Shown here piece after piece: positions 7,487 through 40,730 of a stretch of DNA of 64,000 nucleotides (positions within the stretch are counted from its first letter, which is position 1; each line of letters begins with the position of its first letter). Location: NCBI RefSeq assembly GCF_000818195.1, contig NZ_JTHL01000001.1, positions 5,541,380 to 5,605,379 on the forward strand. Direction: 5' to 3'. The position numbers and the translations under genes were made by a program. Below the pieces are notes generated by a model, which worked only from the letters and a program-made list of their open reading frames with translations, did not search any database and was not told where the DNA came from. Origin of the DNA: Streptomyces sp. 150FB. GTDB taxonomy: Bacteria; Actinomycetota; Actinomycetes; Streptomycetales; Streptomycetaceae.

Positions 7487-7516
7487 CGGCGCACAGCCGG
7501 GGGCCAAGTCCCCGGT

Positions 7517-13783: not shown

Positions 13784-13956
13784 CCCTCTCGCTTCCGGAC
13801 GACCTGGTGCCGAGGGATGTGCGATTGGGACGTGTCGGAAAACCAGCCGGCCAGTAGAAGGCCGACAGACGGTAACCGGCGACCGGCGCCTTCGACCTCG
13901 TAGGAGGACGGCCAGCCCGCCGGCGAGGACGCATCAGCGTCCCCCACCGAAACCCC

Positions 13957-14127
13957 TGTGCCCTCAATGTGCCCCGGCGGCCCGACGGCCGGGTACCGCA
14001 CCGAAAAGGGCGAGGCCCGAAGACCTCGCCGGCCACCGGAGAAACCCCAGGTCAGGGCCACACCAAGCAGTACGGCTGGTGCCCCGCCTCGTGCAGTCTG
14101 TGGCTGAAGTCCTGCCATTCGTGCAGC
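13957..14127. repeat. att-like copy B with TGTGCC arm repeat
   Basis: Positions 14042-14127 match 38701-38786 over 86 bp with a single mismatch. To the left, TGTGCC-N5-TGTGCC (13957-13973) sits 68 bp from the repeat, as at the resident integrase end. The remaining 13784-13956 shows no gene. To the right of the repeat, the sequence through GGACCTGGGG is shared with the right side of copy A, which marks the left end common to both elements. This is the left junction of the large element and the right junction of the small one. Confidence 0.8.
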
Positions 14128-14206
14128 GATTGAAAGAGGCAGGGCCCGGACCTGGGGTTTCTCGACGATATGGAGGCTGACCAGGGAAAACTTGTCTCCC
14201 CAGTTC

Positions 14207-18681: not shown

Positions 18682-18683
18682 GC

Positions 18684-20887: not shown

Positions 20888-21970
20888 CTAGTAATGCGTA
20901 GGGGACGTGCTACGGGGTGAGGATCCCTTTCGAGCAACTGTTTCCCAGGCGGCAGCCACCTTGCCCGTACCGAGGCGACCAGTCTTGGCCCTCGCCGCAG
21001 CGGCAAGCGCTTCGCGGCGCGACGGGTTCTTGAGGAGTTCGACGGTGGCGTTTGCGAAGGCGGCCTGGGTGTCGGGGTGGTCGATGTCTCCGCCGATGAG
21101 TAGGCCCGTTTGGTCGTGGTGGACTCGTTCGGTGAGAGCGTCGATCGGGCTGGTGATGACTGGGGTGCCGGCTGCTGCGGATTCGGCGGCGCTCAGACAG
21201 AACATTTCGGGGAAGCGGCAGGGGTACAGGGTGAGGGCGGCCTGCTGTTGGATTTCGATCAGTTCGCTGCGGGGGCGGGTGCCGAGGAGGCGGACGCCAG
21301 CGGGTAGGGCGTTGCCGCCGAGGAGTTGGGTCCAGCGGTCGTCGGATTCGGAGTTGGTGAAGCCCCAGAGTTGCCAGCCGCTGGTGATCCAGAGTTCGGC
21401 ATCGGGGACGGCGGCGTGGACGCGGGGCCACAGGGCGAGGGCTGCGTCGAGGCCGCGGTTGGGCATGCTGGCGTACAGGCAGATGGGGGCGCGGTTTTCG
21501 ATGGGGCGGGTGTAGCGGTCGGTCTCCACCGGGAGTGGGATGAACCGGGTGGGGATGGTCGGATCGTGGGCGTCGATGCGGTTCTGCATGGCCTGGGACG
21601 CGATGACGACCGTGCCGCCCTGGTTGCCGAAGCGGTTGGTGAAGGCGGCGGGGCCTCGGGGGCGGTCGTCGAGCATCCAGAAGAGGTGGCGGCCGGCCTT
21701 TGAATCGGCGGGCCAGAGTGCTTCGTCAAAGCGGACGGCGACCGCGACGTCCGGTGTCGGCGCGGTGTCGAGTTCCCAGGCCATGCGCCAGGTCACGCCG
21801 TCGTAGACGCCGGGCCGGTAGCAGCAGTTGAAGACTTCGACGTGGTGGCCATGGGCGGCCAGGGCCCGGGTGAGGAGCACGAGGGACGCCTCGCAGCCGC
21901 CGAGGCCCGGGGACTCCAGGTCGGGCGGGTGGAAGCTGGTGCGCTTGGGGTAGTGGAAGTGCCATCGCAC
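20888..21970 (-). CDS. Glycosyltransferase, family 4-like
   Basis: A 360-residue enzyme with the GT-B plan: an N-terminal part with GLGGCEASLVLLTRALAAHG (the acceptor side of GT4 enzymes) and a C-terminal part with LYPCRFPEMFCLSAAESAAA and GTPVITSPIDAL, the E-x7-E-type nucleotide-sugar site. It should transfer a sugar from a nucleotide donor; donor and acceptor are unknown. GTG 21970 follows GAGGAG. It is the last gene of the minus-strand cluster that starts with the NADAR-RibA fusion, 31 bp after the Nudix gene. Confidence 0.8.
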   Translation of the reverse strand: MRWHFHYPKRTSFHPPDLESPGLGGCEASLVLLTRALAAHGHHVEVFNCCYRPGVYDGVTWRMAWELDTAPTPDVAVAVRFDEALWPADSKAGRHLFWMLDDRPRGPAAFTNRFGNQGGTVVIASQAMQNRIDAHDPTIPTRFIPLPVETDRYTRPIENRAPICLYASMPNRGLDAALALWPRVHAAVPDAELWITSGWQLWGFTNSESDDRWTQLLGGNALPAGVRLLGTRPRSELIEIQQQAALTLYPCRFPEMFCLSAAESAAAGTPVITSPIDALTERVHHDQTGLLIGGDIDHPDTQAAFANATVELLKNPSRREALAAAARAKTGRLGTGKVAAAWETVARKGSSPRSTSPTHY

Positions 21971-22001
21971 GGGCGTCTCCTCGTGAGTGGTGAGTGTGTG
22001 G

Positions 22002-22487
22002 TCAGTTGTGCCAGGTGTCCTCGTGGACGGAGGCGGGGTCCAGGCCGAGGGTGCGGGCGGCGTGGACGGCGCTCGCGGCTTGGAGGAGGCCGTCGATGCC
22101 CCAGTCGAGCAGGGCGGGGGCCCTGTGGAGCGGGGTGAGCAGGCGGCCGTAGGTGCGTCCTGTGTCGGGGTCCTTGTGGCGGGGGTGGAAGCGGGTGATG
22201 CGGGCGGCGTAGCGGAGTTGGGCGTATGGCTGTTGTCCGTCCTCGGTGACTTCCTGGTATCCGAGGTAGTGGGGGTCGGCGATGGTGATCTGGCTTTCTT
22301 CGTCGCATTCGCGGCTCAGGGTGGACAGGGCGTCTTCGCCGGTTTCGGGGCGTCCGCCGGGCAGGCCGTAGTGGCCGCCGTCTTCGCGGAGTAGGACGCG
22401 GCCGGTGCTGTCGAAGCAGAAGCCGTAGACCTGGCGGACGGTGATGCCGGTGGGGAGGGGCTCGGTGATCCAGCGGAAGGTGGTCAT
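22002..22487 (-). CDS. Nudix hydrolase
   Basis: A 161-residue protein with a near-complete Nudix box, GGRPETGEDALSTLSRECDE, followed by ESQI; the final Gly of the consensus is Ser. Nudix enzymes hydrolyse nucleoside diphosphates linked to another group. ATG 22487 follows GGAG. In a cluster with glycosyltransferases and nucleotide kinases it may act on a nucleotide sugar. A different possibility is an element-exclusion role, since the Pif factor of the Streptomyces element pSAM2 is a Nudix protein; the sequence does not decide. Confidence 0.85.
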   Translation of the reverse strand: MTTFRWITEPLPTGITVRQVYGFCFDSTGRVLLREDGGHYGLPGGRPETGEDALSTLSRECDEESQITIADPHYLGYQEVTEDGQQPYAQLRYAARITRFHPRHKDPDTGRTYGRLLTPLHRAPALLDWGIDGLLQAASAVHAARTLGLDPASVHEDTWHN

Positions 22488-22555
22488 GGTGACTCCGTGG
22501 TGCGGTGATGCGGATGGCTTGCCCAGAGGCGGGCCGAGGGGGTGAAGTCCTCGTC

Positions 22556-23191
22556 ATGCCCTTGGTGTTCTGCAAGCCTGACGCACTGAGCGGACCGCAC
22601 CGCACGATGGCGCGCGAGCGTGCCGTGGCTCTGCTGACCGCATTGGCGGGGATGTGCTCCGGTACGGGGACGTCGCTCGTTCCCGGTCTTTGGCGGCCCC
22701 CGGCCGAGCGAGCCGCTGTGCAGGTATCCGAGCGGGCTCGCACCGAAGCCGCGTTTCAGGGGACGGCCCGGGAAGGCGGTACGGCGTCCGCGCGCCTCCT
22801 GGGTGTGGTGGAGACGTTGCCGTTCGGTGTGGTGGAGACGCGCGAGCTGCTGGAGCTTTCGTTGGCCGGGCTCGGCTTCGGTATTCGGTCGGCGCATCGG
22901 CTGGTGCTGGGAAAAGCGGGAGTTGACGCGGTGTACGCGGGTGCCACGACGACCACCGAGTACGAACTGGTTCGCGCTCGGCTGTTGGAGTATCTGGCCG
23001 CGGACGAGGTCGAGGTCTGGGACCTGGATGGCGGGCAGGCTGGGTGCGTACTTCAGTGGTGGAAGACGTACGTCCGTCACCTGCTGCTGGACCGGCGGCC
23101 GGGTGAGTACCTGCTGCGGAACCTGGTGCACGTCTGTGAGGGGCCTGACGCCGGGTACCTGTTGGGGAGGGTGCACGGGACCGGTCATTGA
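22556..23191 (+). CDS. Nucleoside diphosphate kinase-like protein (weak)
   Basis: A 211-residue plus-strand product that starts MPLVFCKPDALSG, close to the KPDA start of nucleoside diphosphate kinases. It lacks a recognisable active-site His region (NxxHGSD), so it is at best a diverged, possibly non-catalytic relative. ATG 22556 is a compromise: the purine-rich GAGGGG is 14 bp upstream, longer than usual. It is divergent from the Nudix gene and its 3' end overlaps the 3' end of the kinase-like gene at 23185 by 7 bp. Confidence 0.4.
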   Translation: MPLVFCKPDALSGPHRTMARERAVALLTALAGMCSGTGTSLVPGLWRPPAERAAVQVSERARTEAAFQGTAREGGTASARLLGVVETLPFGVVETRELLELSLAGLGFGIRSAHRLVLGKAGVDAVYAGATTTTEYELVRARLLEYLAADEVEVWDLDGGQAGCVLQWWKTYVRHLLLDRRPGEYLLRNLVHVCEGPDAGYLLGRVHGTGH

Positions 23192-23829
23192 CCGCGTTCC
23201 CAGCAGGTGGTGGCGTGCAGGGCGATGCGGGTGGCGAGTTCGGCGGTGTCGGTGGTGGTGCTGTCCAGGCGCAGTACGTGGGGGACGTGGGCGGTCATCA
23301 GGCGGTCGAGGGCGTTGTGCCAGCGGGCGAAAGCGTCTCGATCCGGGCCGAAGAAGCGGCGGGCGGCGTCCTTGGCCGTACGGCCCGCCTCGGCGTCGGC
23401 GCGGTGGCGTTTGAGGCGGACCGGGAAGTCGGTGTGGAGCAGGGTCGCGCCGGCGAACCGGACGTGGGCCGAGGAAGTGGCTGAGTAGAGGCGGGCCATG
23501 CGGTGGTCGTCCTCCAACTCGGCGCGGGCCCAGGCCCGGAAGTGGGTGCTCACCTTGATTACGGGAGTACCGAGCGGGCGTCGGGCCATGCGGTCGATGA
23601 CGGGTTCGGTGACGTAGAGACCCCGGCGCAGCAGATCCCTGGCGCTACCTCTGGGCACGGGCCCGGTGAGGTTGGCGAGGCGGGCGTCGAGGCGTCCGAG
23701 TGCGCCGCCGATGAGGGGGCCGATGACGGTCTGCGGCTGAAAGCCCTGTTGCCGCAGGAGGTCTTCAACGAGTCGGGTGATCGTCTTCTTGCCGGAACAG
23801 TCCAGCCCCTCCACTGCGTACGGTCGCAT
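23185..23829 (-). CDS. Thymidylate kinase-like P-loop nucleotide kinase
   Basis: A 214-residue protein beginning MRPYAVEGLDCSGKKTITRL, the thymidylate-kinase P-loop (normally EGxDGSGKST) with Cys and a second Lys inside the loop. A later DRMARRP segment and a helical C-terminus fit a deoxynucleotide-kinase fold. The substrate need not be dTMP; a housekeeping enzyme should exist elsewhere. ATG 23829 follows GAAGGAG. Its start overlaps the end of the preceding gene by 65 bp, so translation is coupled. Confidence 0.7.
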   Translation of the reverse strand: MRPYAVEGLDCSGKKTITRLVEDLLRQQGFQPQTVIGPLIGGALGRLDARLANLTGPVPRGSARDLLRRGLYVTEPVIDRMARRPLGTPVIKVSTHFRAWARAELEDDHRMARLYSATSSAHVRFAGATLLHTDFPVRLKRHRADAEAGRTAKDAARRFFGPDRDAFARWHNALDRLMTAHVPHVLRLDSTTTDTAELATRIALHATTCWERGQ

Positions 23830-24901
23830 CGAGATCTCCTTCGAGGGACAGAGGGATGGGGCGGCGGCGCCGTAGCGATTCGGTGACGAGGGCTTCGGCG
23901 GCCTGGTGGGCGTCGGATGTGCAGGCGGCCAGTTCGATCAGGTGGAGGGGGTAGCGGCCGGTGCTGTGGGGCATGTCGGCGTAGTGCCAGGAGTCTTCGT
24001 CGTCCGGGCAGCACGGGATGGTGACGGCGTCAGGAGCATGGAGCAGGCCGGCGACGGCGGTGTGGTGGCCGTAGGTGTTGCCGAAGTGGCGCACGGGGGT
24101 GCCGGTGAGTTGCAGGACGGTCTCGGCAAGGGCGGTGAGGCGGGCGCCGGGGAGGAGTTGGCCGCTGTCGAGCAGCTCGATCAGTTGCTCCTCCGAGAGG
24201 GGGGCGGCCTTGGTGCCCTGGCCCGCTGCGAGGGGTGTGGTGTCGAGGCGGCCGGATCGGGCGTGGAGGCGGACGCGGAGCGGGATGCCCTGGGGGCTGG
24301 TCGCGACCGCCAGCAGGGGCCACATGGTGGTGCGGTCGAACGCTGCCCAGCGCTGGAGCACAGCGACCATGCCGCCGGGGGTACGGGCGAGGCCCACGGC
24401 GAGGAGATGCCGTGCCGGAGAGCGGGTGAGACTGATCAGGTTCAATTCCGGCAGGCTCGGGAGCAGTTCCCTGTGCAGGGCGTCGGCGGCCTGCCACAGG
24501 GCCTCGCCCGTGGTGAGAGCCGAGCCAGCAGCGGTGCAGCGCCCGGTGAAGTCGTCCCGTAGGCGCTCCAGGACCGTGCGTTCGCGTGCCGTGGTCTCGG
24601 GGTGGGCGTGCGCCGCGTCGTAGATGCGGGTGATCAGGCGTACCGACGGGTGGTCGGAGGCGGGAAGCCACCAGGGCGCGAAGGCGAACACCGTTTCCGG
24701 GGTGGCAATTTCGACCACGCGCAGTCCCTCCGGGGCGACGCGGGGCAGGCGGATGGTGATCCCGCCTCGACGCCGGGGGAACTCGTTCAGCAGCCCGTCG
24801 TGGTGGCCGAGCAGGCGCCGGTGCCGGTGGTGGTGCACGGGCATCCGGGCTGAGGGGTTGACGGTGGGGTGCCAGGCGTCGGTGACGTCGAAGGGGATCA
24901 G
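23765..24901 (-). CDS. Uncharacterised protein of the NADAR-RibA cluster (probable CTG start)
   Basis: A 378-residue protein with no family that I recognise. It has a central helical part (RERTVLERLRDDFTG) and a C-terminal part with FGNTYGHHTAVAGLL and IPCCPDDEDSWHYADM, a Cys/His/Asp-rich stretch that could hold a metal. CTG 24901 is proposed because GAGGAGG lies 8 bp upstream and it overlaps the TGA of the preceding glycosyltransferase gene; the first ATG, 24844, would remove 19 residues. The 3' end overlaps the kinase gene by 65 bp. Co-expression with the kinase and glycosyltransferases is likely. Confidence 0.55.
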   Translation of the reverse strand: MIPFDVTDAWHPTVNPSARMPVHHHRHRRLLGHHDGLLNEFPRRRGGITIRLPRVAPEGLRVVEIATPETVFAFAPWWLPASDHPSVRLITRIYDAAHAHPETTARERTVLERLRDDFTGRCTAAGSALTTGEALWQAADALHRELLPSLPELNLISLTRSPARHLLAVGLARTPGGMVAVLQRWAAFDRTTMWPLLAVATSPQGIPLRVRLHARSGRLDTTPLAAGQGTKAAPLSEEQLIELLDSGQLLPGARLTALAETVLQLTGTPVRHFGNTYGHHTAVAGLLHAPDAVTIPCCPDDEDSWHYADMPHSTGRYPLHLIELAACTSDAHQAAEALVTESLRRRRPIPLSLEGDLDATVRSGGAGLFRQEDDHPTR

Positions 24902-26262
24902 CGCGCTGCCCTCCTCTGCTGCCGGGGCAGTCGCCAGGGGTGGGCGGCGGGCTCGTCCAGGCGGCGGGCGTAGTGGGCGAGGTTCGTCGCCAGTTCGGCG
25001 TCCCTGCGCTCGGGGCTCCCGGAGCGGGGCGGGTGTGCGCGATGGAAGACCCCGGTGGACAGTACGGGGATCACGTAGGAGCCGCGGGCGATGAGCTTGG
25101 CCGCGAAACACATGTCCTCCGGACCCCAGCCGGCGAACTCCGGCGGGAAGCCCAGCGGGCGGGCAGCGGCGGCGGACAGCGCCAGGTTGTTGCCCTTCAC
25201 CATGAACGGCAGATCGACCGGACCGAGGTGCCGGCCGTGGCCGAAGTTACGGAACCCACGGGTCTGGGCGAGCGGACGGACGGTGACCGGCGCCGTGACC
25301 GGGGCCAGGCCGACGCGCCCCCGCGCGTACTGCGCGATGCTCCGGGAGTCCTGGCCTACGTCGGGAGCGCGGTCGGGGAGGGGGAGATCGGCGGGGACGT
25401 GTTCGCGCAGGGAGACGGTGATCAGGTTGGGCGCGATCAGGTGCCGGGCGACGTGCTGCTGGAGGTAGTTCGGGGAGAGGTGGGTATCGGCGTCGCAGAA
25501 GACCAGCAGCTCGTAACGGGAGTGCGTCATCCCAAGGTTGCGGGCTCCACCGCTGTAGAGCTGGGTCGCGCTGCGGACGAGCCGGATCTGGGGTGGGAGC
25601 CCGGTGGGCAGCCTCAGGGGAGGGTCGTCGGCGTCGTCGACGACGATCGCCTCCCACGGGGTGTCCGGAGTGAGCCGGGAGGCGGCCTCGGCGAGTGAGG
25701 AGAGTACGTCGGGCAGAACCTCGTGCACCCCGCGAGCCGGGAGGATCACGCTGATGCCTTCGCGACAGGGCAGCGATCGGGCACGGAAGGTGTCCATGGG
25801 GCGCAGGCCGAGGGCTTGAGCGGCGTAGTCGAGTGGGCGGTAGTCGTTGCTGCGTGCGGCAAGTGCCTCGGCGGTCGTCGGTCCGTCGGGGCCGAGTGGC
25901 CGGATGTCGGGCCGGCCGAGCCAGCCGGTCACCGACCACGGGTCGGGCACCTCGGCTTCGTGCAGTACGCCAAGAATCCGGGTCCGGCCCCGCTCGACGA
26001 TCAGCAGTCGGACGGGACCGGCCAGGGCGGGCGTACGGGCGAGGATGGCCAGGAGCTGCTGGGTGGGAGCGTGGCGCCATGTCCGGCCGTGGCGAACCCA
26101 GCTCGGACGGCCCGGGGCGGCGAGACGTACCAGCCTTGTGCTGAAGGGGAGTTCGGCCACCAGCTCCAGCGGCGTGTAGCCGGACTGCGCCCACGGCCCG
26201 GCCAACGCCCCGGGCTGCAACCCCTCCGCCGCAGACACCCGTACGGGACGAGGACCGATCAT
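24898..26262 (-). CDS. Glycosyltransferase family 2 with N-terminal extension
   Basis: A 454-residue protein. Residues 1-165 form an extension of unknown function. From about 170 the GT-A fold follows: [40 protein letters not shown] and the DxD-type CDADTH that binds the metal-nucleotide-sugar, ending with [13 protein letters not shown]. It should transfer a sugar from a nucleotide donor. ATG 26262 overlaps the TGA of the NADAR-RibA gene (26259-26262), so it is directly coupled to that gene. Confidence 0.85.
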
Positions 26263-27422
26263 GATGTGCGCTCCGCGAGGAGGGGCAGGGCCAGGCCGGG
26301 CAGTTCGTGGCCCATGCGGTCCCGCTTGGTCCGCAGGTACTCGAAGCTGTGGACGGTCGGCGCGACGAGCAGCGGCACCTGCTCGACCACCTGGACACCC
26401 AACTCCCGTAGCGCAGAGGTCTTGTCGGGGTTGTTGGACAGCAGCCGTACGGAACGGACACCGAGGTCCGCGAGGATCTGTGCGGCGACCCGGTAGTCGC
26501 GGGCGTCGGCCGGCAGACCGAGGGCGAGGTTGGCATCCACGGTGTCGAACCCCGCGTCCTGGAGCGCGTACGCCCGCAGCTTCGCCAACAGCCCGATGCC
26601 TCGGCCCTCGTGTCCCCGTAGGTAGAGGACCACTCCGGCGCCCTCGGCGGCGACCGCCGCCAGCGCGGCGTCCAGTTGCGGGCCGCAGTCGCAGCGCAGC
26701 GAGCCGAGGGCCTCCCCGGTTACGCACTCCGAGTGCACACGGACCAGGACCCTTTCACCGCCGCGTACCTGGCCCAGGGTGAGGGCGAGCTGCTCGCCGC
26801 CCTGGAGCAGGTTCCGATATCCCCGGGCGGTGAACACTCCGTGGATAGTGGGGATACAGGCCTGCGACACGCAGTTGAGCCCGCCGAGGAGACCGGCACC
26901 CACGCTGGCCATGGCCGACGATTCCTCGTCGAGCTGTGCCGTTGCCTGGCGGCGACGGGCCTGCTCTCGTATGGCCATGAGGATCAGCCCCATGGTGTTC
27001 TGTCCGTGGCCGTCGCAGACGCCCCAGAACCGGTCGCCCCAGTCGTTGCCCTCGACCAACTCGGCACTGCCGGTGGCGAGCAGCCGCTCCCGAAGGTCGG
27101 GGGCCCGGAACTTCTCCTCCACCAGGGCGCGCATCACCACGACCTTGGCCTCCTCCCAGTCGGGACGGTTTGCGTGCCGACGGCCCAGGGCCTTGGCTTC
27201 GTCAGGGTCGGGCGTCGCCGCGATGCGGGCGCGCACCTGTTCGTCGGTGGTCTTGGCCGCCTGATAGGCGTGCTCGACCGTGGGGTACGGGCGGTTGCCG
27301 AGGCGGACCTGCGCGGGCGAGTAGTTCGACAGGAACTCCCAGGGGCCGGCGAACCGGTCGATCACAGAGAACACGGGTGGCGGTGCGGGCGTCGGAGGGG
27401 CGGTACGTACGAAGTCGGTCAC
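26259..27422 (-). CDS. NADAR (YbiA-like) - GTP cyclohydrolase II fusion
   Basis: A 387-residue two-domain enzyme. Residues about 20-165 form a NADAR/DUF1768 domain ([49 protein letters not shown]). Residues about 185-385 form GTP cyclohydrolase II, with the three zinc cysteines ([18 protein letters not shown]), the [10 protein letters not shown] loop and [17 protein letters not shown] opens GTP to a diaminopyrimidine phosphate, the first step of riboflavin synthesis; YbiA-type domains cleave the N-glycosidic bond of early riboflavin intermediates, and such fusions are known. GTG 27422 follows GAGGAG at 6 bp. No other rib gene is near. With glycosyltransferases and kinases downstream, it may start a specialised pathway rather than vitamin synthesis. 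Confidence 0.9.
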
Positions 27423-27501: not shown

Positions 27502-27580
27502 GCGTCTCCACGCCGCGCATACGCCGTTTAGCCGCCGTCCCGAACGGCGTTGAAACGGCGGGCAGGCGTCGTGGAGACGC
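27502..27580. promoter_or_regulatory. Two nested inverted repeats in a divergent promoter region
   Basis: An outer perfect 11-bp inverted repeat (GCGTCTCCACG at 27502-27512 with its complement at 27570-27580) encloses an inner perfect 8-bp one (ACGCCGTT at 27521-27528 with AACGGCGT at 27543-27550). They lie between the divergent NADAR-RibA and ATPase-domain regulator genes, where an operator would be expected. Confidence 0.5.
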
Positions 27581-27642
27581 GCCCCCGACAAGCGGAACCT
27601 GAGGGTCACGTCCCTGTCGTACGACCGGAAGAGCGGACCGTG

Positions 27643-28089
27643 ATGGCGAACACCCCATGCCCCCCGAGCCGGACCCCGTCCACCCACTGGGTGCCTCTGG
27701 CCGGTCAGGCTGAGCCGTTGGCTGTCGCCCGCGAACAGGTCCGCATCCTGCTCGCCGACGTCGCTTCCTGCGTGGACGACGCGGTACTGATCGCCTCTGA
27801 GCTGGTCGGCAACGCCGTGCGGCACACGGCCGGCGGCCCCGACTGCCTGGCGATCGAGATCGACGCGGACCAAGTTGTCGTCACGGTCCACGATGCGGGA
27901 GACGACCACGGCGATGTACGCGTACCCGCCCCCTCCGAACGCGACCCGTTGGCGGAGTCCGGGCGCGGACTGTGGCTGGTGGAGATGCTGACACGGCGCT
28001 GGTACGTGGAGAACACCGCGACCGGCAAGGCCGTGGTCGCGGTCCTGCCGCGGCGTGAGCCGGTGGTCAGCCGAGCGGCAGGCTCTTGA
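27643..28089 (+). CDS. HATPase-domain regulator (anti-sigma/serine-kinase type)
   Basis: A 148-residue protein with the GHKL ATPase fold typical of Streptomyces anti-sigma-like kinases: ASELVGNAVRHT (N box), VTVHDAGDD (G1 region) and ESGRGLWLVEMLTRRW (G2). Such proteins bind ATP and control a partner by binding or phosphorylation. ATG 27643 is chosen; GTG 27640 is directly next to it. It is divergent from the NADAR-RibA gene and its 3' end overlaps the convergent 2H phosphoesterase gene by 23 bp. Its target may be the sigma factor encoded on the same element, but nothing links them directly. Confidence 0.8.
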   Translation: MANTPCPPSRTPSTHWVPLAGQAEPLAVAREQVRILLADVASCVDDAVLIASELVGNAVRHTAGGPDCLAIEIDADQVVVTVHDAGDDHGDVRVPAPSERDPLAESGRGLWLVEMLTRRWYVENTATGKAVVAVLPRREPVVSRAAGS

Positions 28090-28783
28090 CCACGTCCCAC
28101 CTGTAGACCCGCCCCTCGCGGCGGAGCTCCACCAACTGCACTTCCTGGATCGGCAGTTCCACGGGAGAACATCCGCGCAGCGCCGTGACGGTCTCGATGA
28201 CCGGCGCCGCCGGGCGGGGCCTGTTGTTGTAGGCCACGCTGAGATGGGGACGGAACCCGGCAGTTGCCTTACGGGGTGGCAGGCCGGACGCGTCCATGGC
28301 GTCGGAGAGGGCCGCATGCAGAGCCACCACCGGGACCCAAGGGGCTACCGATAGGCGTACCGCGCCCCGAGATCCTGCCAGCGGGACGGCCTGAAGCCGG
28401 AAGGCGGGCGGAAGCAGGGGCGTCGCCGCGCCGATCAGGTCATCGAGGCTGTTGGGGGACAGCGTGATGGGGGAGCCGATGCGGGCCAGCGTGATGTGGA
28501 GTCCGTTGTCCGGCACTGGGTCCAGGCCCAGCGGCGCGAGGTCACGCTGGCATTGCCGGGCGAGTGCGGCCAGCTCTGGGTGGTCGGGGAAGGTGAGCAT
28601 CCAGTAGTACACGCGCGTCTGGGGTGTCCACCCAGGCCGGGCCCAATGGTCGACCATGGACTCGACGGCGTCGAAGGCCGCCTGGTCGTGTGCCACGAGC
28701 ATGGCCGGATCGTTCAGATCAGCCGGGGGCTGGACGGGGAACGAGGCGGGGTCGGCGCTGAGCGGCATGTGCGGCGGAGACAC
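28067..28783 (-). CDS. 2H phosphoesterase (2'-5' RNA ligase-like)
   Basis: A 238-residue protein with the two HxT/S motifs that define the 2H fold: LHITLARIG and, about 95 residues later, HLSVAYN. The family cleaves or joins 2',3'-cyclic or 2'-5' phosphodiester bonds in RNA and nucleotides. GTG 28783 is chosen because AAGGAG lies 8 bp upstream. It is 19 bp downstream of the TPR-type regulator gene on the same strand and likely co-transcribed with it. The substrate is unknown. Confidence 0.8.
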   Translation of the reverse strand: MSPPHMPLSADPASFPVQPPADLNDPAMLVAHDQAAFDAVESMVDHWARPGWTPQTRVYYWMLTFPDHPELAALARQCQRDLAPLGLDPVPDNGLHITLARIGSPITLSPNSLDDLIGAATPLLPPAFRLQAVPLAGSRGAVRLSVAPWVPVVALHAALSDAMDASGLPPRKATAGFRPHLSVAYNNRPRPAAPVIETVTALRGCSPVELPIQEVQLVELRREGRVYRWDVVKSLPLG

Positions 28784-28802
28784 CCGGCTAACTCCTTCGT
28801 GA

Positions 28803-30122
28803 TCACCCTGCCGTTGCGGGCGAGGTCCGACAGCCCCAGGCGCGGAGCTGTTCGCCATACTCGCGTACGGCAGGCCGGGACTGCCAAGGGGCCGCTCGTT
28901 CGTACAGGTCACGGGAGCGCTGCCGCACCGAGCTGATGGGCAGCGGGGCGGCGAAAGCGATCGCCTCCCGGCCGAGGGCCATGGCGTGCTCCACGTCCGG
29001 CGCTCGCTGCTGGAGCAGGGCGGTAGCCACGTCCAGTCGTACCAGCGAACGGCTCCAGGCGGAGTCGGACTTCTCGATCAGGTCGTCGAGGCGGTCGGCC
29101 TCGCGCAGCACGTGCACGGCATCCTTCAGCGCGACGCGCGCGGTCACCGCGTTGGCCAGGGTGCGGGCCCGCCCGTACGGGGCGAAGGAGATGCAGGAGG
29201 TCAGGCCGGGCGCCACGTCGTGCCGGTCGGACAGGTCCATGGCCTGTCCGATCACCTGCTCGGTCCGCTTACGGTCGCCGAGCTTGGCCAGCGCGCGGGC
29301 GCGGCCGTTCACCAGCAGCCGGATGGCCTGCGGGTGGTCCGGCGACCGGTCCACCGTGGCCGCGGCCTGTGCGTCGGCATCGTCATACCGGCCGGAGTAG
29401 TACAGCGCGAAGGACAGGGTGCCGCCGGCCCACAGTTCGGTGTCGAGATCGCCGATCGCCCGGCTCAACTCCAGCGCCTCCGCGCAGTACGCCTCGGCCA
29501 GCGGGAAGTTGCCAGTGTTCACGGCCATGTAGCCGAGCAGGCCGCCGGCCCGAGCGGTGATACGGAACAAATCCCTGCGCGCCGAGGGTGGCTGCTGACC
29601 AGCTAGCAGTGTGTGGCCCAGCTTCCGCAGACTCTTGGTCTGCCCCGACAGGCCGCGCGGCCCATCCAGTTCGTATCGGTCGGTGATCTCGTCGAGCTGA
29701 GAGGCGAGGAGCGCGAGCGTTGCCTCATCCGCATTGCCGCAGCTCAACTGGCGGGCGCGGGTGATGATGTCGACTGGATTCTCGTCGTCCGCGACCGTAC
29801 CGGCAGCGGGAACGAGCGAGATTTCAGCAGGGGCCTGAGCGGGGGTATCCCGCTCCGATGGGGCAAGCGCGAACAGTTCGCGGGCTGCTCTTCCCAGGAG
29901 CTGTTCCAGGATGCGGCAAGTGTCAGGGCGCGGCAGGTTCTTCAACTCCCCACTCATCCACCGGTCGAACTGCCGCGACGAGACCACCACCGAGGCCAGC
30001 CGGGGATCGTCGGCCTCCGTCGCCAGCCGCCGGGCCGCGCGGGAGAACTGCGCCTCGAATGCCTTGTACGTCGTGAGATGCCCGGCTTCGAGTAACTGCC
30101 GCAGAAGCGTGATCCGGGGCAT
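28803..30122 (-). CDS. Helix-turn-helix regulator with C-terminal TPR-like repeats
   Basis: A 439-residue protein. The N-terminal 90 residues look DNA-binding (VVSSRQFDRWMSGELKNLP followed by RPDTCRILEQLL). The rest is helical repeats with Ala/Leu-rich pairs (LAEAYCAEALELSRAIGD, GRYDDADAQAAATVD), typical of Streptomyces TPR regulators that bind a peptide or partner protein. ATG 30122 follows GGAGGA. It is divergent from the XRE gene at 30316, with a long inverted repeat between them that may serve both. Confidence 0.75.
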   Translation of the reverse strand: MPRITLLRQLLEAGHLTTYKAFEAQFSRAARRLATEADDPRLASVVVSSRQFDRWMSGELKNLPRPDTCRILEQLLGRAARELFALAPSERDTPAQAPAEISLVPAAGTVADDENPVDIITRARQLSCGNADEATLALLASQLDEITDRYELDGPRGLSGQTKSLRKLGHTLLAGQQPPSARRDLFRITARAGGLLGYMAVNTGNFPLAEAYCAEALELSRAIGDLDTELWAGGTLSFALYYSGRYDDADAQAAATVDRSPDHPQAIRLLVNGRARALAKLGDRKRTEQVIGQAMDLSDRHDVAPGLTSCISFAPYGRARTLANAVTARVALKDAVHVLREADRLDDLIEKSDSAWSRSLVRLDVATALLQQRAPDVEHAMALGREAIAFAAPLPISSVRQRSRDLYERAAPWQSRPAVREYGEQLRAWGCRTSPATAG

Positions 30123-30228
30123 GAGGGTCCTCCAGAAGCGTCGGCGGAACGTTGGGGCCCGTGGCGTCCGTCGGCGGACGGCGCGCACGCCAGGCCGAGC
30201 GGGCGTGCGCCTGACTGAGGCAAGCATG

Positions 30229-30315: not shown

Positions 30316-31197
30316 ATGGCACTGAAGAGGACGCTGGTACCCCAGTCGGTCTACCGACGCCAGCTCGCCGCGCACCTACGCGAGTTGCGGGAGACCGCCG
30401 GCTTCACCCTCTCCGAGGTCGCGGAACAGATCGAGGTCAACCAGGGCTCCCTCAGCCGCATCGAGACCGGCGAACGCGGCACCACACCCGTACTCGTCCG
30501 CGCACTCCTGGACTGCTACACCGTCACTGACACCGCGCTGCGTGACGACATCCTCGATCTGGTCCGCGCCGACAAGGAACAGCAGAAGCCCTGGTGGCGG
30601 AAGTACTCCACGGTCCTCACCTCCACCCGCTATGACGGCTACCTGGCCCTGGAGGCAGACGCCACGGCGCTGTCCAGCTACCAGCCCATGCTCGTCCCCG
30701 GTCTGCTCCAGACCGAGGAATACGCGCGCGTCGTCATTGCCCAGATGCGCCCCGACCTCACTCCCGCCGAGGTCGAAGCCCTGGTCAAGGTCCGCCTGGA
30801 ACGCCAGGACAGCCGCCTGAGTGGTGAGCACCGGGTCGAGCTGTGCGCGGTCCTCGACGAAGCCGTCCTGCGTCGCACCGTCGGGTCGAACGCCGTGATG
30901 CGCGAGCAGTTCGCCCACCTCGTCAGGGCCGGGGGGCTGCCGAACGTCACTGTCCAGCTCCTACCGTTCTCCCTCGGCGCCCACCCCGGCCTGTACGGTC
31001 CGTTCGTCATCCTCACCTTCCCCCAGCCCACAGCCCCGCTGGTTTGGCTGGAGAATCCCAAGAACTCGGTGTACCTGGAGTCCGAGAGCGACGTCGGGAA
31101 CTACACGGAGATTTTCGACCAGCTCAGAGCCTGCGCCCTCAGCCCGGCCGAAACGCTCACCCGCATCACCCGCACTGCCGAGGAGCTTGAACCGTGA
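30316..31197 (+). CDS. XRE-family regulator with DUF5753 domain (WhiJ-like)
   Basis: A 293-residue protein. Residues 12-70 are an XRE helix-turn-helix (LRELRETAGFTLSEVAEQIE, GSLSRIETGERG). The C-terminal 200 residues match DUF5753 (MLVPGLLQTEEYARVVI, ELCAVLDEAVLRR, TVQLLPFSLGAHPGLYG). Streptomyces carry many such proteins, each paired with a small DUF397 protein, as here: its stop overlaps the GTG of the DUF397 gene. They act in developmental and antibiotic regulation. ATG 30316 gives the standard length. Confidence 0.92.
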   Translation: MALKRTLVPQSVYRRQLAAHLRELRETAGFTLSEVAEQIEVNQGSLSRIETGERGTTPVLVRALLDCYTVTDTALRDDILDLVRADKEQQKPWWRKYSTVLTSTRYDGYLALEADATALSSYQPMLVPGLLQTEEYARVVIAQMRPDLTPAEVEALVKVRLERQDSRLSGEHRVELCAVLDEAVLRRTVGSNAVMREQFAHLVRAGGLPNVTVQLLPFSLGAHPGLYGPFVILTFPQPTAPLVWLENPKNSVYLESESDVGNYTEIFDQLRACALSPAETLTRITRTAEELEP

Positions 31198-31469: not shown

Positions 31470-33176
31470 TCATCGTCGGTGGGGGCGCACCACTTCGTAT
31501 TGAGGTGCAGCGGGTACGGCTGGAGCCGGAACAGGACTCGGCGTCGGCTTCGAGCGTCGGGTCGGGGTGGTGACGTATCCGAGGCGGTTAAGCCGCCAGA
31601 CCAGGACGTCGCTCGCCGACCCGGCGCTGCCGAATTCGCGCTCCCCGGCGGCCTTGACCAGGAGGGCAGCGGTGTCGAAGCCTGCCCGTTCGGCCTGGTC
31701 GATCACGGCCGTCAGCGCCTCCCAACCGGGCTCGGACTGGAGGCGGTCGACGAGGTCGGGGAGCGCGGCACGGACGGTGGTGGTGTGACGTTGCCGGTCC
31801 GCTGCCGGGACGCGTTCGGCGTAGGCGCGCAAAGAGGTCAGAGGGCCGGTCGCGGTGGCCTGGTAGGCGGTACGTAGATGGCGTGCGGCGAGCTGGGCGG
31901 CTTCGGCCTGCTGGGCATGGCCACGGGCGGCGTGCCAGCGGGCAGCGGCGATGACGGCAAGGATCATGACGTCGAGGATCAGCGCGGTGGCGGCGCCTTC
32001 CTGGCCGCGACCGAGGGCTCCACCGGAGTGGACGATCTGGCGGGCCGCCCGCCGTAGGGCGTGCATCTCCTCGTTCTTGGCGCGGGTGTGGGAGCGAGTG
32101 GCGCGCTCGAAATGCCTTGCTGCCGCACGTAGTTCGGCCCGGCCGGTGCTGGGTGAGGTCTGGGCGAGAGCGTCAATCACCTCGCCGACCCCGATCAGGT
32201 GGGCGGCTGCCGTACCGTCGTCCTCTGCTGTCAACGAGGTGAGCGCCACGTCGGCGGTCCGGGCGGCGGCGTAGCGGGCGCGGGCCGGCGCCGAGGTGCC
32301 GCTCAGGGGCAGGTCCGTGGGTTGCGCTTCTGCCTCCTTGGCGGTCACGAACCGTTTGCGGATGCGGGGCAGGGAGAGGTCCGGGGCGAGCGTGGAACCG
32401 GCGTACCAGATGGGCTCGCGGTCCTTGTTGTGGTCGCCGACGACGGCGACGTTGTAGCCGAGCACGTCGCCGGAGGGCGCGACGCGCTTCTTGATACGGA
32501 CGCCCTCTGCGGCGAGTCGGTCGAAGAACTCCGTCTCGTCGGCTGCGCCGGCCAGGGCACGGCGGACGTGCTCGCGCAGCAGTTCCTTCGAGGGGGCCTC
32601 CTGTCCGAGGCGCTTCGCCTTGTGGCGTTCCGCGCTGGTGGGGCGTTTCGCGGCGGTGCCGTCGCCCGGTGCGACCCTGCGCAGTCCGTAGTCGACTTCG
32701 ATGCGGCGGGCCTCGGCCTGGGCGCGGTGGGCTTCGTTGTGCAGTCGAGGCCGGCGACCGTCGTCGCGGACCAGGGTGGCGATGATGTGGATGTGGTCGT
32801 CGGTGTGGCGGACGGCCGCCCAGCGGCAGGCTTTTTCGTCGCCGTCCGGAGCGATGCCGGTGGCGGCGACCGTGCGGCGGGCGATGGCGGCCCAGTCCTC
32901 GTCGGAGAGGATCGGGTCCTCGGGACTGGCGCGTACGGACAGATGCCATACGTGCTTCTCGGGGCGCTTGCTTTCGGCAAGGGCGTTGACTGGCTGGTTG
33001 AGCAGGCGCTCAAGCTGCGCGTAGGTGGCGCCGGGGTCGCGGCCGGGGTCCGGAGTCAGCGGGTCGAAGGCGGCGACCAGGTGGGGGTCCACATGTTCTT
33101 CATGGGTGCCGGGGCCGTAGAGGTAGCGGATCAGGCCGACCGTCTTGCTGCCGCGCTTGTGGATGCTGGGGATCAT
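31470..33176 (-). CDS. Relaxase (MobA/VirD2-like mobilisation protein)
   Basis: A 568-residue protein with the relaxase three-His motif HTDDHIHI (His124, His128, His130) and an upstream HVWHLSV strand. It should nick the element's transfer origin and stay bound to the 5' end; a likely catalytic Tyr lies in the first 20 residues (Tyr18/Tyr20 in LIRYLYGPG). The long C-terminal part is helical with a hydrophobic stretch near residue 400. ATG 33176 overlaps the stop of mobC (ATGA at 33173-33176), so the two are made together. No coupling protein or TraB is encoded nearby. Confidence 0.88.
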   Translation of the reverse strand: MIPSIHKRGSKTVGLIRYLYGPGTHEEHVDPHLVAAFDPLTPDPGRDPGATYAQLERLLNQPVNALAESKRPEKHVWHLSVRASPEDPILSDEDWAAIARRTVAATGIAPDGDEKACRWAAVRHTDDHIHIIATLVRDDGRRPRLHNEAHRAQAEARRIEVDYGLRRVAPGDGTAAKRPTSAERHKAKRLGQEAPSKELLREHVRRALAGAADETEFFDRLAAEGVRIKKRVAPSGDVLGYNVAVVGDHNKDREPIWYAGSTLAPDLSLPRIRKRFVTAKEAEAQPTDLPLSGTSAPARARYAAARTADVALTSLTAEDDGTAAAHLIGVGEVIDALAQTSPSTGRAELRAAARHFERATRSHTRAKNEEMHALRRAARQIVHSGGALGRGQEGAATALILDVMILAVIAAARWHAARGHAQQAEAAQLAARHLRTAYQATATGPLTSLRAYAERVPAADRQRHTTTVRAALPDLVDRLQSEPGWEALTAVIDQAERAGFDTAALLVKAAGEREFGSAGSASDVLVWRLNRLGYVTTPTRRSKPTPSPVPAPAVPAAPQYEVVRPHRR

Positions 33177-33790
33177 GCCGGGGTGTCGTCCTCGCGGTGG
33201 GCGAGCAGGGCGTCGGCGGCGTCCTCCATGCGGCGGGCCGCGCCGAGGACTGCGTGAGATGTGGCGTCGAGGTGGGGCGCGGGGGCGCCGGAGTTGAGGG
33301 CCTTGGCGACTTGGTTGAACAGGCCGTGGATGCGGCCGAGGTGCCGGCGGGCCGCGAAGATCTCGCCGATGACCTCTCGTTCTGTGGCGATCTCTGCGGC
33401 GGTACGGGCCAGGTCGCGGGCAGCTTTGTCCACGGCGTACGCGAGGAAGGCGGCGTTGCTCATCCCGCACTGCTCGGCAGCCTTGGTGAAGCGCGCGAAC
33501 TCCGTGTCGTTCATACGGCAACTGGGCTGATGCAGACGCTTGAGCGGCTTCGGCTGACGCGGGCGCTGGCGCCTGTGAGAGAAGGCTTCGGCGGGTTGTT
33601 CCCCTCCATGCTGCGGTCCGCCCTCGGTCGCTGCCTGCCGGTCCGGTGCCCCCTGGCGCCGAGCCGCTCCCGCCACCCCTGGGGCGGGAAACCCGGGAGC
33701 ATTGCTCCCGGTACAACTTGCTCCGCTTTTTGCCGTGGTCGTGGGTATCTGCTGCTGGTGGGAAGGGATTTCGCGTTGCTGGTCGTGCAT
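33173..33790 (-). CDS. MobC-like relaxase accessory protein
   Basis: A 205-residue protein. The first 85 residues are Pro/Gln/Arg-rich and probably disordered. From about 90 a MobC domain follows (RMNDTEFARFTKAAEQCGMS, GLFNQVAKALNSG). MobC proteins open DNA around the nick site and help the relaxase. ATG 33790 is preferred because the basic stretch leading into the domain is usual in actinobacterial homologues, although a shorter start cannot be excluded. It overlaps the relaxase gene by 4 bp. Confidence 0.85.
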   Translation of the reverse strand: MHDQQREIPSHQQQIPTTTAKSGASCTGSNAPGFPAPGVAGAARRQGAPDRQAATEGGPQHGGEQPAEAFSHRRQRPRQPKPLKRLHQPSCRMNDTEFARFTKAAEQCGMSNAAFLAYAVDKAARDLARTAAEIATEREVIGEIFAARRHLGRIHGLFNQVAKALNSGAPAPHLDATSHAVLGAARRMEDAADALLAHREDDTPA

Positions 33791-33857
33791 CAGGCTGTTC
33801 TCCGGTAGGGGGCCATGGCGGGGTGACGATGCTGTGTCGGCTCGTTGACGGTCCGGG

Positions 33858-33893
33858 CACCCGTCCCCGCGCTGAGCTAGTCGGGAACGGGTG
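33858..33893. promoter_or_regulatory. Inverted repeat upstream of mobC, candidate oriT or terminator
   Basis: CACCCGTCCCCG (33858-33869) and CGGGAACGGGTG (33882-33893) pair with one mismatch across a 12-bp loop. It lies between the DUF2637 gene and mobC, the usual place for a transfer origin next to the relaxase operon. A related perfect repeat lies at 34867-34900. A terminator is the alternative. Confidence 0.45.
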
Positions 33894-33922: not shown

Positions 33923-34750
33923 TTACGAGGTAACTCGGCGGGCTTCGTCGCGGGCACCGTTGAGTTCGGCCTGCAGCATGCGGGTGGCGTCCGCTACGCG
34001 GTCCTTTCCGACGGTGTGGCCCTTGGCCCGGATCTCTGCTTCTACTGCGCGTCGCGAGATGCGGCCGTCGCGTCCTCGGGGAGCGTTGCGGCCAATGGTG
34101 AGGAGTTCGTCCATGGTCGCGCTCGGCTGCCGGCCCGTGGGTTTGGGCGGTGCCTCGTGTGGATCCGCCACTGTGGCGGATTGTTTCGCCACATCGCCGC
34201 TGGTATCCGTGGCGCCTTCGCTCGGGAGGTGCTCAGCGAGCGGTGGCTGCTCTGGCGTGGCGGTGTCGGTGTGGCTGGCCAACGGGTGGCGGCGGATGAC
34301 GAGGTAGAGGTGGACCGAGCCGGCGAGGGCGAGGGGGGCGATGGCGGAGAGGACTCCGACGGTGGCGTCGTCGAGGTGGAGGCTGGTGCTGCGGGTTTGC
34401 TGGTTGAGGCGGATGGCGTGCAGGGCGTTGGCCCAGATGCTGGTGGTGGTGGCGATGCCGACGAGCACCCATACGTAGAGGCGGGAGCCAAGTGGCCCTG
34501 TGCGGAGGATGAGCAGGGCGCCGACGCCGATGGCGATGAACCCGTCTATGACGAGGGGGAAGGTGTAGGTGAGCGGTCCGCGGATGTGTATGGCGACGGC
34601 CATCTGTCGCAGAGCGTCGTAGGAGAGGGCGAAGCCGATGGTGCCGAGCAGGGCGACGCCGAGGCGGATCGCGGCAGTGCCCGGTACGGCGGTGGCGGCG
34701 GTGGAGGAAGGCAAGCGGATGTACTCCAGGCGGGGTTGGGCAGCGGCCAC
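33923..34750 (-). CDS. DUF2637 membrane protein with C-terminal winged-helix-like part (Spd-like)
   Basis: A 275-residue protein. Four hydrophobic segments lie in the first 155 residues (LGVALLGTIGFALSYDALRQ, LVIDGFIAIGVGALLIL, VWVLVGIATTTSIWANAL, LSAIAPLALAGSVHLYLVI), the DUF2637 pattern of plasmid spread proteins. After a Pro-rich linker, the C-terminal 60 residues form a DNA-binding-like domain (GRISRRAVEAEIRAKGHTVG). GTG 34750 is the start. Such proteins are tied to spreading of conjugative elements through mycelium. Confidence 0.82.
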   Translation of the reverse strand: MAAAQPRLEYIRLPSSTAATAVPGTAAIRLGVALLGTIGFALSYDALRQMAVAIHIRGPLTYTFPLVIDGFIAIGVGALLILRTGPLGSRLYVWVLVGIATTTSIWANALHAIRLNQQTRSTSLHLDDATVGVLSAIAPLALAGSVHLYLVIRRHPLASHTDTATPEQPPLAEHLPSEGATDTSGDVAKQSATVADPHEAPPKPTGRQPSATMDELLTIGRNAPRGRDGRISRRAVEAEIRAKGHTVGKDRVADATRMLQAELNGARDEARRVTS

Positions 34751-34918: not shown

Positions 34919-36244
34919 TCAGGCCCCGGTGTTTGCGGCGGGCCCGGTGGCGGCGGGGCGCTGGGCCGGGAGTGGCGAATTGGCGGTCGGTGCGGGGCAG
35001 TAGCGGGCCCAGGCGTCGAAGAACTGAGTGCGGGCGTACCCCTTGGCCTGGACGCCGTCGGGGAAGCGGTGATTGGCTGGCCGGATGCTGTAGTCCTCCA
35101 GCAGCAGGCCCAGGCGGCGCGGGTTCAGCCCGGTGGGGCCGTGCTCGGCCCAGGGCGATTCCGGGTCGCCGTTGAGTTCTTCGATCAGGCGGCTGGTGCG
35201 CAGAGTGGCGGGGTCGCCCTCGGCGCTGAAGACCCTTCGGATGTCGATCAGGATCCGGGTGCGGAGTCCTGTGTCCGCGTCCTTGCCGGACTCATGGGCG
35301 GTCATGGCGCGGCAGGCCGTGCGGGCGAGTGTGGGCCAGTCGCCTCCGGCGAGGTCGGCGACGATCACCAGAGGTTCCCAGGTGTCGGCGGCGCGGTCCT
35401 CGACCGGCATGTCCGGCTCCCTGCCTGTCGCTTCGGAGAGCTCCGGTTGCAGCCAGTCGGTGAGACGGTCGCGGATGGTGTGCAGAGCTGGGGTGTCGCG
35501 GACGGTGCGGAAGGATGCGACGGTCTCGCCCGGTGCCCTGCGGCGCATGCGGATGACCACGGACCGGTCCATGATCGTGTCCGGCAGGTCTCCGATGCCG
35601 GCGAGCGCGGCCATGGCGAAGGTGGGAAACGCCTGCGGTTTGTGCTCCGGTCCGCTGACTCGCAGGGTTGGGCGGTTGCGCTGGTGACCGGCGTTCAGCA
35701 GGCCACGCAGGTCTTCGTTGCGTTCCGCCGCCTTCGCGGTGCCGAACAGCGTGTCGGCCTCGTCGACGAGGAGCGTGGGTGGGTCCTCGTGAGTGATCGA
35801 GCGGAAGATCGCCGCAGGGCTGGCGTTGACCGTGATCAGCGGGGCGCGCACGGTCTCGGTCACCACGTCCAGCAGCCGCGACTTTCCGCACCGCTTGGCG
35901 GGGCCGACGACCGCGAGGCGGGGCGCGTGCTGCCACGCGGTCTGCAGGTGAGTGGCTGCCACCCAGAGCGTCACGGCCGTAACGGCTTCCTTGTTGGGCA
36001 GTACGACGTACCGCTTGATCTCTGCGGCCAGATCGGTGAGGACCTGCTCGCCCTCGGCGATGGGCTCGATGAGGCTGCTGTCCCGCTTGATCGGTCTGTC
36101 TTCTTGTACGAGCTTCGGGCTTACCTCGGTGCTCGCGGCAGGGGGATCCGAGAGGTGAGCACGTGGCCGGCCGGGTATCGCGGTGGGCGGCCATATGGGT
36201 TCGGGGGACGGGCTGGGGACAGGCAAGGGCATGGGTTCGCCCAT
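34919..36244 (-). CDS. DUF3631 P-loop ATPase, element replication/maintenance
   Basis: A 441-residue protein. After a Pro-rich start, a P-loop domain follows: RLAVVGPAKRCGKSRLLDVV (Walker A GPAKRCGKS), Walker B TLLVDEADTLFG, and MDRSVVIRMRRR, the arginine-finger region. The C-terminal 120 residues are the DUF3631 domain (RTSRLIEELNGDPESPW, RRLGLLLEDYSI). This family is found on actinobacterial plasmids, phages and integrative elements, where it is thought to act in replication. ATG 36244 follows GAGGAA. It precedes the membrane protein gene in the backbone. Confidence 0.85.
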   Translation of the reverse strand: MGEPMPLPVPSPSPEPIWPPTAIPGRPRAHLSDPPAASTEVSPKLVQEDRPIKRDSSLIEPIAEGEQVLTDLAAEIKRYVVLPNKEAVTAVTLWVAATHLQTAWQHAPRLAVVGPAKRCGKSRLLDVVTETVRAPLITVNASPAAIFRSITHEDPPTLLVDEADTLFGTAKAAERNEDLRGLLNAGHQRNRPTLRVSGPEHKPQAFPTFAMAALAGIGDLPDTIMDRSVVIRMRRRAPGETVASFRTVRDTPALHTIRDRLTDWLQPELSEATGREPDMPVEDRAADTWEPLVIVADLAGGDWPTLARTACRAMTAHESGKDADTGLRTRILIDIRRVFSAEGDPATLRTSRLIEELNGDPESPWAEHGPTGLNPRRLGLLLEDYSIRPANHRFPDGVQAKGYARTQFFDAWARYCPAPTANSPLPAQRPAATGPAANTGA

Positions 36245-36390: not shown

Positions 36391-36615
36391 TCAGCCGACG
36401 AGGTCGTACGCCGACTGCTTCTCCAGCCATGCGTCCACGTCCTGCCAGCGGTACCGGAGGTGGCGGCCGACCTTGTGCACGTTGGGGCCGATGCCCCGGT
36501 ACTTCCACTGGTACAGGGTCTTCACCGGGACATCGAGGTAGGCGGCGACCTCATGAGGTGCCGCCATGGACTCGCGCCCGGAAGCGACGGGGCGGTGGGT
36601 GGAGGGGTGAGGCAT
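36391..36615 (-). CDS. xis: Excisionase-like helix-turn-helix protein
   Basis: A 74-residue protein of the MerR-like excisionase family (HTH_17): EVAAYLDVPVKTLYQWKYRG, then VGRHLRYRWQDVDAWLEKQ. It should bend DNA at the attachment sites and steer the integrase to excision. ATG 36615 follows AGGAG. It is encoded 700 bp from the integrase in the opposite direction and directly upstream of the DUF3631 gene. A general regulator is the alternative. Confidence 0.85.
   Translation of the reverse strand: MPHPSTHRPVASGRESMAAPHEVAAYLDVPVKTLYQWKYRGIGPNVHKVGRHLRYRWQDVDAWLEKQSAYDLVG

Positions 36616-39402: not shown

Positions 39403-40730
<1,328 letters not shown>

Follow-up and report, generated by a model that had tools for sequence, protein, structure and literature searches.

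The 64,000-nucleotide stretch of Streptomyces sp. 150FB analysed here (the window; contig NZ_JTHL01000001.1, positions 5,541,380 to 5,605,379) carries at 20,888–27,422 a set of genes headed by a fusion of a NADAR domain to GTP cyclohydrolase II (RibA). The set comprises the following features.

26259..27422, minus strand: NADAR-GTP cyclohydrolase II fusion, 387 residues; PF08719, PF00925, TIGR02464 and TIGR00505 above cut-off
24898..26262, minus strand: GT2 glycosyltransferase; PF00535 (3.5e-13) above the Pfam cut-off
23765..24901, minus strand: orphan protein, ~378 residues; third-position G+C 0.85
23185..23829, minus strand: P-loop kinase-like protein; PF02223, E 0.0079, residues 6–31 only
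22556..23191, plus strand: opposite-strand open reading frame (ORF) between the kinase-like and Nudix genes, converging on the former
22002..22487, minus strand: Nudix hydrolase; PF00293 (1.6e-7) above cut-off; Nudix-box stretch GRPETGEDALSTLSRECDEE
20888..21970, minus strand: GT4 glycosyltransferase; PF13692 and PF00534 above cut-off; EX7E at residue 255

The NADAR-RibA fusion

Both domains of the fusion scored above curated cut-offs within one open frame, bearing out the fused enzyme described in an initial annotation of the locus. The NADAR half (residues ~28–154) reached 89.8 bits against PF08719 in a Pfam profile search (cut-off 35.1) and 76.7 bits against TIGR02464 of NCBIfam (cut-off 73.7), and the GTP cyclohydrolase II half (residues ~185–377) reached 220.7 bits against PF00925 (cut-off 23.3) and 233.4 bits against TIGR00505 (cut-off 205.85). 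Alignment with the E. coli enzyme (2bz0) demonstrated that the RibA half keeps C233, C244, C246 and Y285, which we take to be the zinc Cys triad and the catalytic Tyr. The NADAR half was matched by eye to the residues named in PMC11543638 and keeps E50, K57, E124, D130 and W133; E124 corresponds to the conserved Glu of the YbiA subfamily, and the E124–D130 spacing is one residue longer than in that study. The predicted start is GTG 27422, behind GCGAGGAG, in a frame open from 27464. Upstream of the gene, positions 27502–27580 hold inverted repeats whose 37-base arms are 76% complementary; a control site could be there.

The origin of the fusion was examined using trees in which non-fusion rows had been picked by similarity to the window, viral sequences make up most of the NADAR set and the Pseudoalteromonas branches are long. 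In the RibA tree (23 rows), the RibA half grouped with 18 actinobacterial (RibBA) rows (95/91), apart from two Vibrionales NADAR-RibA fusions; the host's chromosomal RibA grouped with named Streptomyces rows (99/99). The NADAR tree (85 rows, 80 of them different; bootstrap not settled) split the NADAR half from the Vibrionales and Pseudoalteromonas fusions (100/98), its own place being unsupported. The window's fusion is 41% identical to that of Photobacterium and shares both domains with the Vibrio-type NADAR-RibA (COG3236-RibA), their order being identical in the Photobacterium and V. coralliilyticus copies. A fusion on a Pseudoalteromonas plasmid has the reverse order, RibA first and NADAR second, which argues for a separate fusion event. 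On the P. donghaensis plasmid (L233, 12684–19206) a large GT2, RibA-NADAR, an asparagine-synthase-like and an arylamine N-acetyltransferase gene follow one another in that order. This four-gene set stands directly after TraV/TraC-type transfer genes.

Genes downstream of the fusion

The stop codon of the fusion overlaps the GT2 ATG by 4 bases (ATGA, 26262–26259), and the orphan and kinase-like frames overlap by 65 bases. The orphan frame contains no ATG, GTG or TTG near its beginning and its first in-frame ATG is 19 codons further in; it probably starts at CTG 24901, which lies 7 bases downstream of GAGGAGGG and overlaps the GT2 stop. Third-position G+C of 0.84–0.89 across the six minus-strand frames supports all six as coding.

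The GT2, Nudix and GT4 identities all passed Pfam cut-offs, in agreement with the initial annotation, and each protein keeps motifs that we take to be usual for its family. In the GT2 protein CDAD stands at 256 and WGPED at 379, and the N-terminal ~165 residues have no assigned family. The orphan had no family match in Pfam or NCBIfam, and its earlier description as Cys/His-rich was not confirmed (4 Cys and 22 His in 377 residues). Weak matches to myo-inositol-phosphate synthase (E 0.007) were observed for residues 54–140. Matches to WD-40 were taken as scoring artefacts, as no single stretch passed alone, and single-sequence AlphaFold2 gave no usable model (mean predicted local distance difference test score, pLDDT, 34.5).

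The term thymidylate-kinase-like could be upheld for the P-loop only. The kinase-like protein scored 16.3 bits against PF02223, below the cut-off of 27, and the label is derived from 26 residues. In alignment with the genome's own thymidylate kinase, 36 of 500 shuffles were as good or better, and the DR[YFHT] (DRY-type) motif, presumably a hallmark of thymidylate kinases, was not found in the translation. The opposite-strand ORF, missed in the initial annotation, had no Pfam match. It contains KPD and NLVH motifs reminiscent of nucleoside diphosphate kinase, but the resemblance is not statistically supported, as 370 of 500 shuffles aligned equally well with the host's own enzyme. Single-sequence AlphaFold2 again yielded no usable model (mean pLDDT 38.4), and membership of this ORF in the system is uncertain.

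A mobile element carries the gene set

The whole set is cargo within an integrated element of ~24.7 kb (about 14.0–38.7 kb of the window), a status also absent from the initial annotation. Direct repeats at 13954–14127 and 38612–38786 are 82% identical over 180 bases, with a 97-base core (14041–14137 and 38700–38796) that is 95% identical. A third copy at 7491–7688 (78% over 202 bases) suggests stacked insertions. The right repeat reaches into a conserved gene that adjoins a class-III aminotransferase gene. The remaining features of the element are listed below.

13954..14137: putative left attachment-site repeat
27550..28089, plus strand: HATPase_c_2 protein (longest frame; start may be further in); PF13581, 1.1e-11
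28067..28912, minus strand: 2'-5' RNA ligase/LigT phosphoesterase family; PF13563, 3.7e-14
28803..30227, minus strand: NsdA-family TPR-like regulator; NF053720, 156.9 bits (cut-off 75)
30376..31197, plus strand: XRE/DUF5753 regulator; PF19054, 8.9e-60
31470..33860, minus strand: relaxase (longest frame); PF03432, 2.2e-9
33923..34750, minus strand: DUF2637 protein; PF10935, 6e-12
34919..36244, minus strand: RepAM-type (DUF3631) replication-initiator-like protein; PF12307, 3.5e-72
36391..36615, minus strand: excisionase-like HTH_17 protein; PF12728, 7.8e-11
37312..38643, plus strand: tyrosine integrase; PF00589, 1.6e-12
38612..38796: putative right attachment-site repeat, extending into the conserved gene 38711–39424 at its 3' end

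Occupation of this site was assessed with a flank query of 1551 bases in 41 genomes including the window's own. All 41 matched, several by the aminotransferase part only and one (G017) weakly (1.4e-4). A second repeat copy was present 12–26 kb away in 3 of 24 other genus genomes (G003, G007 and G016). The elements of G003 and G007 share the backbone (integrase 79%, excisionase-like protein 64–75%, Rep 60–61% and relaxase 46% identical) and a HATPase-like stretch (33–37%). No relative of the fusion, GT2, orphan, kinase-like, opposite-strand, Nudix or GT4 proteins was detected in these two elements at E up to 0.1. Between the repeats of G016 only a relaxase fragment matched. The cargo of the G003 element (L247, 5517–12555, and L248, 632–3719) includes TfuA, YcaO, flavoprotein, methyltransferase, phosphotransferase, GT4 (L247, 14982–15962), EPSP-synthase-like and dCTP-deaminase-like genes, the first five of which recall, to our mind, thioamitide clusters. 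No Rfam match was obtained at 12–36 kb of the window.

A full actinomycete integrative and conjugative element (AICE) was considered and dropped, as no FtsK/SpoIIIE-type protein was present among the scanned element ORFs; with a relaxase instead, the element is closer to an integrative mobilisable element. AICEs, as described in PMC3218068 and PMC9513070, likewise possess a tyrosine integrase, RepAM (to which DUF3631 corresponds; PMC3218068), flanking repeats and variable cargo, with different elements at one site, but are defined with an FtsK/SpoIIIE transfer protein (PMC3218068).

Further genes were observed towards the left of the window. An RHS/YD-repeat protein (7842–12599) with a WXG100-like N-terminus and a DNA/RNA non-specific endonuclease C-terminus lies between the repeat at 7491–7688 and that at 13954, and may belong to the cargo of a further element stacked at this site. 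Three adjoining minus-strand genes at 15830–19172 had no Pfam match, the middle one containing by eye a P-loop-like GPQGFGKR, and are a candidate cargo system of a new kind. The protein at 19561–20727 had partial matches to the phage-defence models PD-T7-5 (2.2e-9) and PD-T7-1 (2.5e-4) and no Pfam match.

Riboflavin genes of the host

In the 9.8-Mb host genome, ribD, ribE, a pnuC-like gene, ribBA and ribH were identified from translations together at about 1.28 Mb (G000:C1; X stands in part of the ribBA translation). The profile-scanned ORFs of the element (window scanned up to 40.7 kb) included no further riboflavin gene, as the initial annotation had stated. Since the host has its own ribD, ribE, ribBA and ribH, riboflavin supply is unlikely as the purpose of the fusion, and the earlier view that the set does not serve vitamin synthesis is supported by this and by the location of the fusion on a mobile element.

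Relatives of the cluster genes

Among 149 other genomes, the best GT2 relative (G295, L108; 33–36% identical) is at most about 4 kb from queC and queE, with genes for a radical SAM protein, a phosphoribosyltransferase and a GT4 nearby (roles from translations). Translations of the same region also include a reverse-transcriptase-like ORF and 5'-3' exonuclease-like and PIG-L-like genes. Of the plasmid records, only that of a Streptosporangium sp. NBC_01495 plasmid (L146) gave a GT4 relative at 1e-10 (30–34% identical); the cluster there contains queC, queE, queD, a dTMP kinase, a Nudix gene, a nucleoside 2-deoxyribosyltransferase, a GT4 and several phosphotransferases. NsdA-like regulators had been guessed from translations of this cluster and are not supported, as the NsdA query gave no significant match. 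The 7-deazaguanine pathway, to which the que genes point, likewise starts from GTP according to PMC7439116.

The genome samples searched for the set partly overlap; hence counts are not summed, and absence elsewhere is unproven. The fusion query matched 391 of 392 genus genomes at 1e-20; among the matches listed for the 391 other genomes, with four candidates scored per genome, none covered the NADAR half, which was matched by the window's own locus only. The 80 loci retained from a scan of genome contigs matched the RibA half only or little more. Matches to the orphan at E 0.001 occurred in 2 of 295 genus genomes, its own and one (G096) dismissed as chance because it lies opposite an 879-residue ORF. 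The kinase-like protein matched in 3 of 295, its own and two weak stretches at the P-loop end (G066 and G089) with no fusion, orphan, Nudix or GT4 gene within about 9 kb; a GT2-like stretch lies 3 kb from the G089 match. A joined query matched 2 of 394 class genomes (its own and one weak match), which is weak evidence of absence as two candidates were scored per genome and the window's own opposite-strand ORF was missed.

With the GT4 protein as query, the only genome of 226 in the class that matched at 1e-12 was its own. A GT4 profile matched 139 of 197 at 1e-8, mostly by the C-terminal half; among the matches listed, two (G339 and G507; about 1e-12 to 1e-11) span most of the profile, with no other cluster genes in the ~20 kb around them. 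Plasmid searches returned no relative of the orphan, kinase-like, GT2 or opposite-strand proteins, and viral-contig scans none of the orphan, kinase-like, opposite-strand or GT4 proteins. The viral-contig scan with GT2 gave four weak matches, two of those contigs also holding weak GT4 stretches. The initial annotation had named a gene order confined to this strain as an outcome that would count against it, and the order did prove unique in the samples searched. As swappable mobile cargo is expected to be rare, this uniqueness weakens the case for a conserved system without refuting a function.

Proposed function and alternatives

We propose, at a probability of a little under one half (about 0.47), that the gene set is a specialised-metabolite cluster in which GTP would be opened and deglycosylated to 2,5,6-triaminopyrimidin-4-one, feeding a glycosylated metabolite. 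The RibA half would open GTP to 2,5-diamino-6-(5-phosphoribosylamino)pyrimidin-4-one, from which the NADAR half of the same protein would remove ribose 5-phosphate to release the reactive free base. This base, or a nucleotide rebuilt from it, would then be conjugated. Sugars would be attached by GT2 and GT4 and phosphate by the kinase-like protein, and the Nudix protein would trim a diphosphate. The domains, conserved active-site residues, gene overlaps, separate rib genes, element backbone and repeats were observed; each of these reactions, their order and the product are our proposal. A specialised pathway is favoured by the GT2 and GT4 relatives near 7-deazaguanine genes, the reverse fusion beside a GT2 gene and the cargo of the sister element. 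It is also the part of the initial suggestion, a specialised nucleotide- or pyrimidine-derived glycoside pathway, that reads best from context; the modification or defence role named beside it retains the PDC-M42C match discussed below.

Several observations weigh against this proposal. Kinship to the GT2 and GT4 relatives is distant, and three phage records, equal in length and perhaps one phage, likewise contain a GT4 relative (25.6%, E 7e-23). Weak GT2 (34% over ~120 residues) and GT4 (25%) relatives were observed within a few kb of each other on viral contigs L143 and L144. The NADAR half matches candidate-defence models. No transporter, methyltransferase or deaminase was found among the profile-scanned genes, and the kinase-like protein was not significantly similar to the Streptosporangium plasmid dTMP kinase (equalled by 40 of 500 shuffles). 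Nowhere else in the samples searched did this gene order occur, so that no conservation ties the genes together. The opposite-strand ORF separates Nudix-GT4 from the rest, and these two genes may be unrelated to the fusion, GT2, orphan and kinase-like genes.

This last point underlies a rather unlikely reading, in which the fusion, GT2, orphan and kinase-like genes form one operon and the Nudix-GT4 pair and the opposite-strand ORF are other, unrelated cargo modules. The differing cargo of the sister elements fits such an arrangement, as does the failure to find a relative with both groups in the samples searched; on the Streptosporangium plasmid, however, a span of about 14 kb holds a Nudix, a GT4 and a dTMP-kinase gene, the kinase not being significantly alike. 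A role in phage defence or counter-defence, in which the NADAR half would remove ADP-ribose from guanine or signals, or the set would alter nucleotide pools, is less probable still. NADARs can reverse guanine ADP-ribosylation (PMC11543638, PMC11125620), and the NADAR half scored higher against the phage NADAR family phrog_1017 (141.5 bits) than against Pfam NADAR. It also matched PDC-M42C, a candidate-defence model of PADLOC, over almost the full length (3.2e-8, model positions 15–155 of 158), which may reflect domain kinship only, and fell far below the 240-bit cut-off of the NCBIfam anti-phage NADAR model (49.1 bits). The Nudix protein matched PDC-S07 in part (3.8e-5), the neighbouring 19561–20727 protein matched PD-T7-5 in part, and the phage GT4 relatives point the same way. 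The apparent closeness to viral NADARs in the tree carries a bias, however, since viral collections supplied most of the NADAR rows, and the fusion partner, a complete GTP cyclohydrolase II, points to a riboflavin-type substrate. No ADP-ribosyltransferase was present among the scanned ORFs of the element, whereas an adjacent one is expected in DarT-NADAR toxin-antitoxin systems.

Under directed overflow or damage control, a role put forward for proteins of Vibrio and plants, the fusion would destroy excess reactive riboflavin intermediates, and its neighbours would be unrelated cargo. The domain pair and order shared with Photobacterium favour this, and the V. cholerae RibA-COG3236 fusion is described as cleaving early intermediates, presumably lowering reactivity (PMC5312566). 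The V. cholerae gene, however, stands inside a riboflavin operon, adjoining ribD, ribE and ribH (PMC5312566), whereas the window's fusion has a RibA half of actinobacterial kind, overlaps a GT2 gene and lies with glycosyltransferases on a mobile element, the rib genes being elsewhere. An extra GTP cyclohydrolase II would, moreover, add to overflow. We regard this explanation as improbable and the least favoured of those weighed.

The proposed GTP-derived cluster has partial parallels among known pathways. A dedicated GTP cyclohydrolase II has been proposed as the start of toxoflavin-type and pseudoiodinine pathways (PMC9911603). The pseudoiodinine cluster as described there has RibD, methyltransferase, WD-40 and sulphatase-modifying-factor genes, none of which was found among the window's scanned ORFs, and the word NADAR is absent from that paper. 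The 8-azaguanine (ptn) cluster of Streptomyces combines GTP ring opening and a putative nucleosidase, encoding a GTP cyclohydrolase I-like PtnA and a nitric oxide synthase (PMC7109123). Neither of the latter was found among the window's scanned ORFs; the window has cyclohydrolase II and NADAR as one protein, plus glycosyltransferases. Huimycin and other 7-deazapurine clusters pair a GTP-derived base with a glycosyltransferase (PMC7439116), and the window's GT2 and GT4 have relatives beside queC and queE, but no QueC, QueD, QueE or GTP cyclohydrolase I was found among its scanned ORFs. A literature search, incomplete as subscription journals were mostly outside it, showed among the papers listed no report of NADAR as a biosynthetic step. 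The locus is real and rare, and most likely represents a version of a GTP-derived metabolite cluster borne by a mobilisable element. That NADAR-RibA is a portable base-making module, independently assembled in different phyla and converting GTP to free triaminopyrimidinone for a new class of glycosylated metabolites on mobile elements, is a broader and doubtful extension.

Waste disposal has so far been the explanation given for the joining of NADAR to RibA. Should the free base be what the pathway is after, this chemistry would instead be a biosynthetic entry point, and NADAR-RibA genes outside rib operons would provide a search handle for GTP-derived metabolites. The mobile context would account for the spread of such small clusters.

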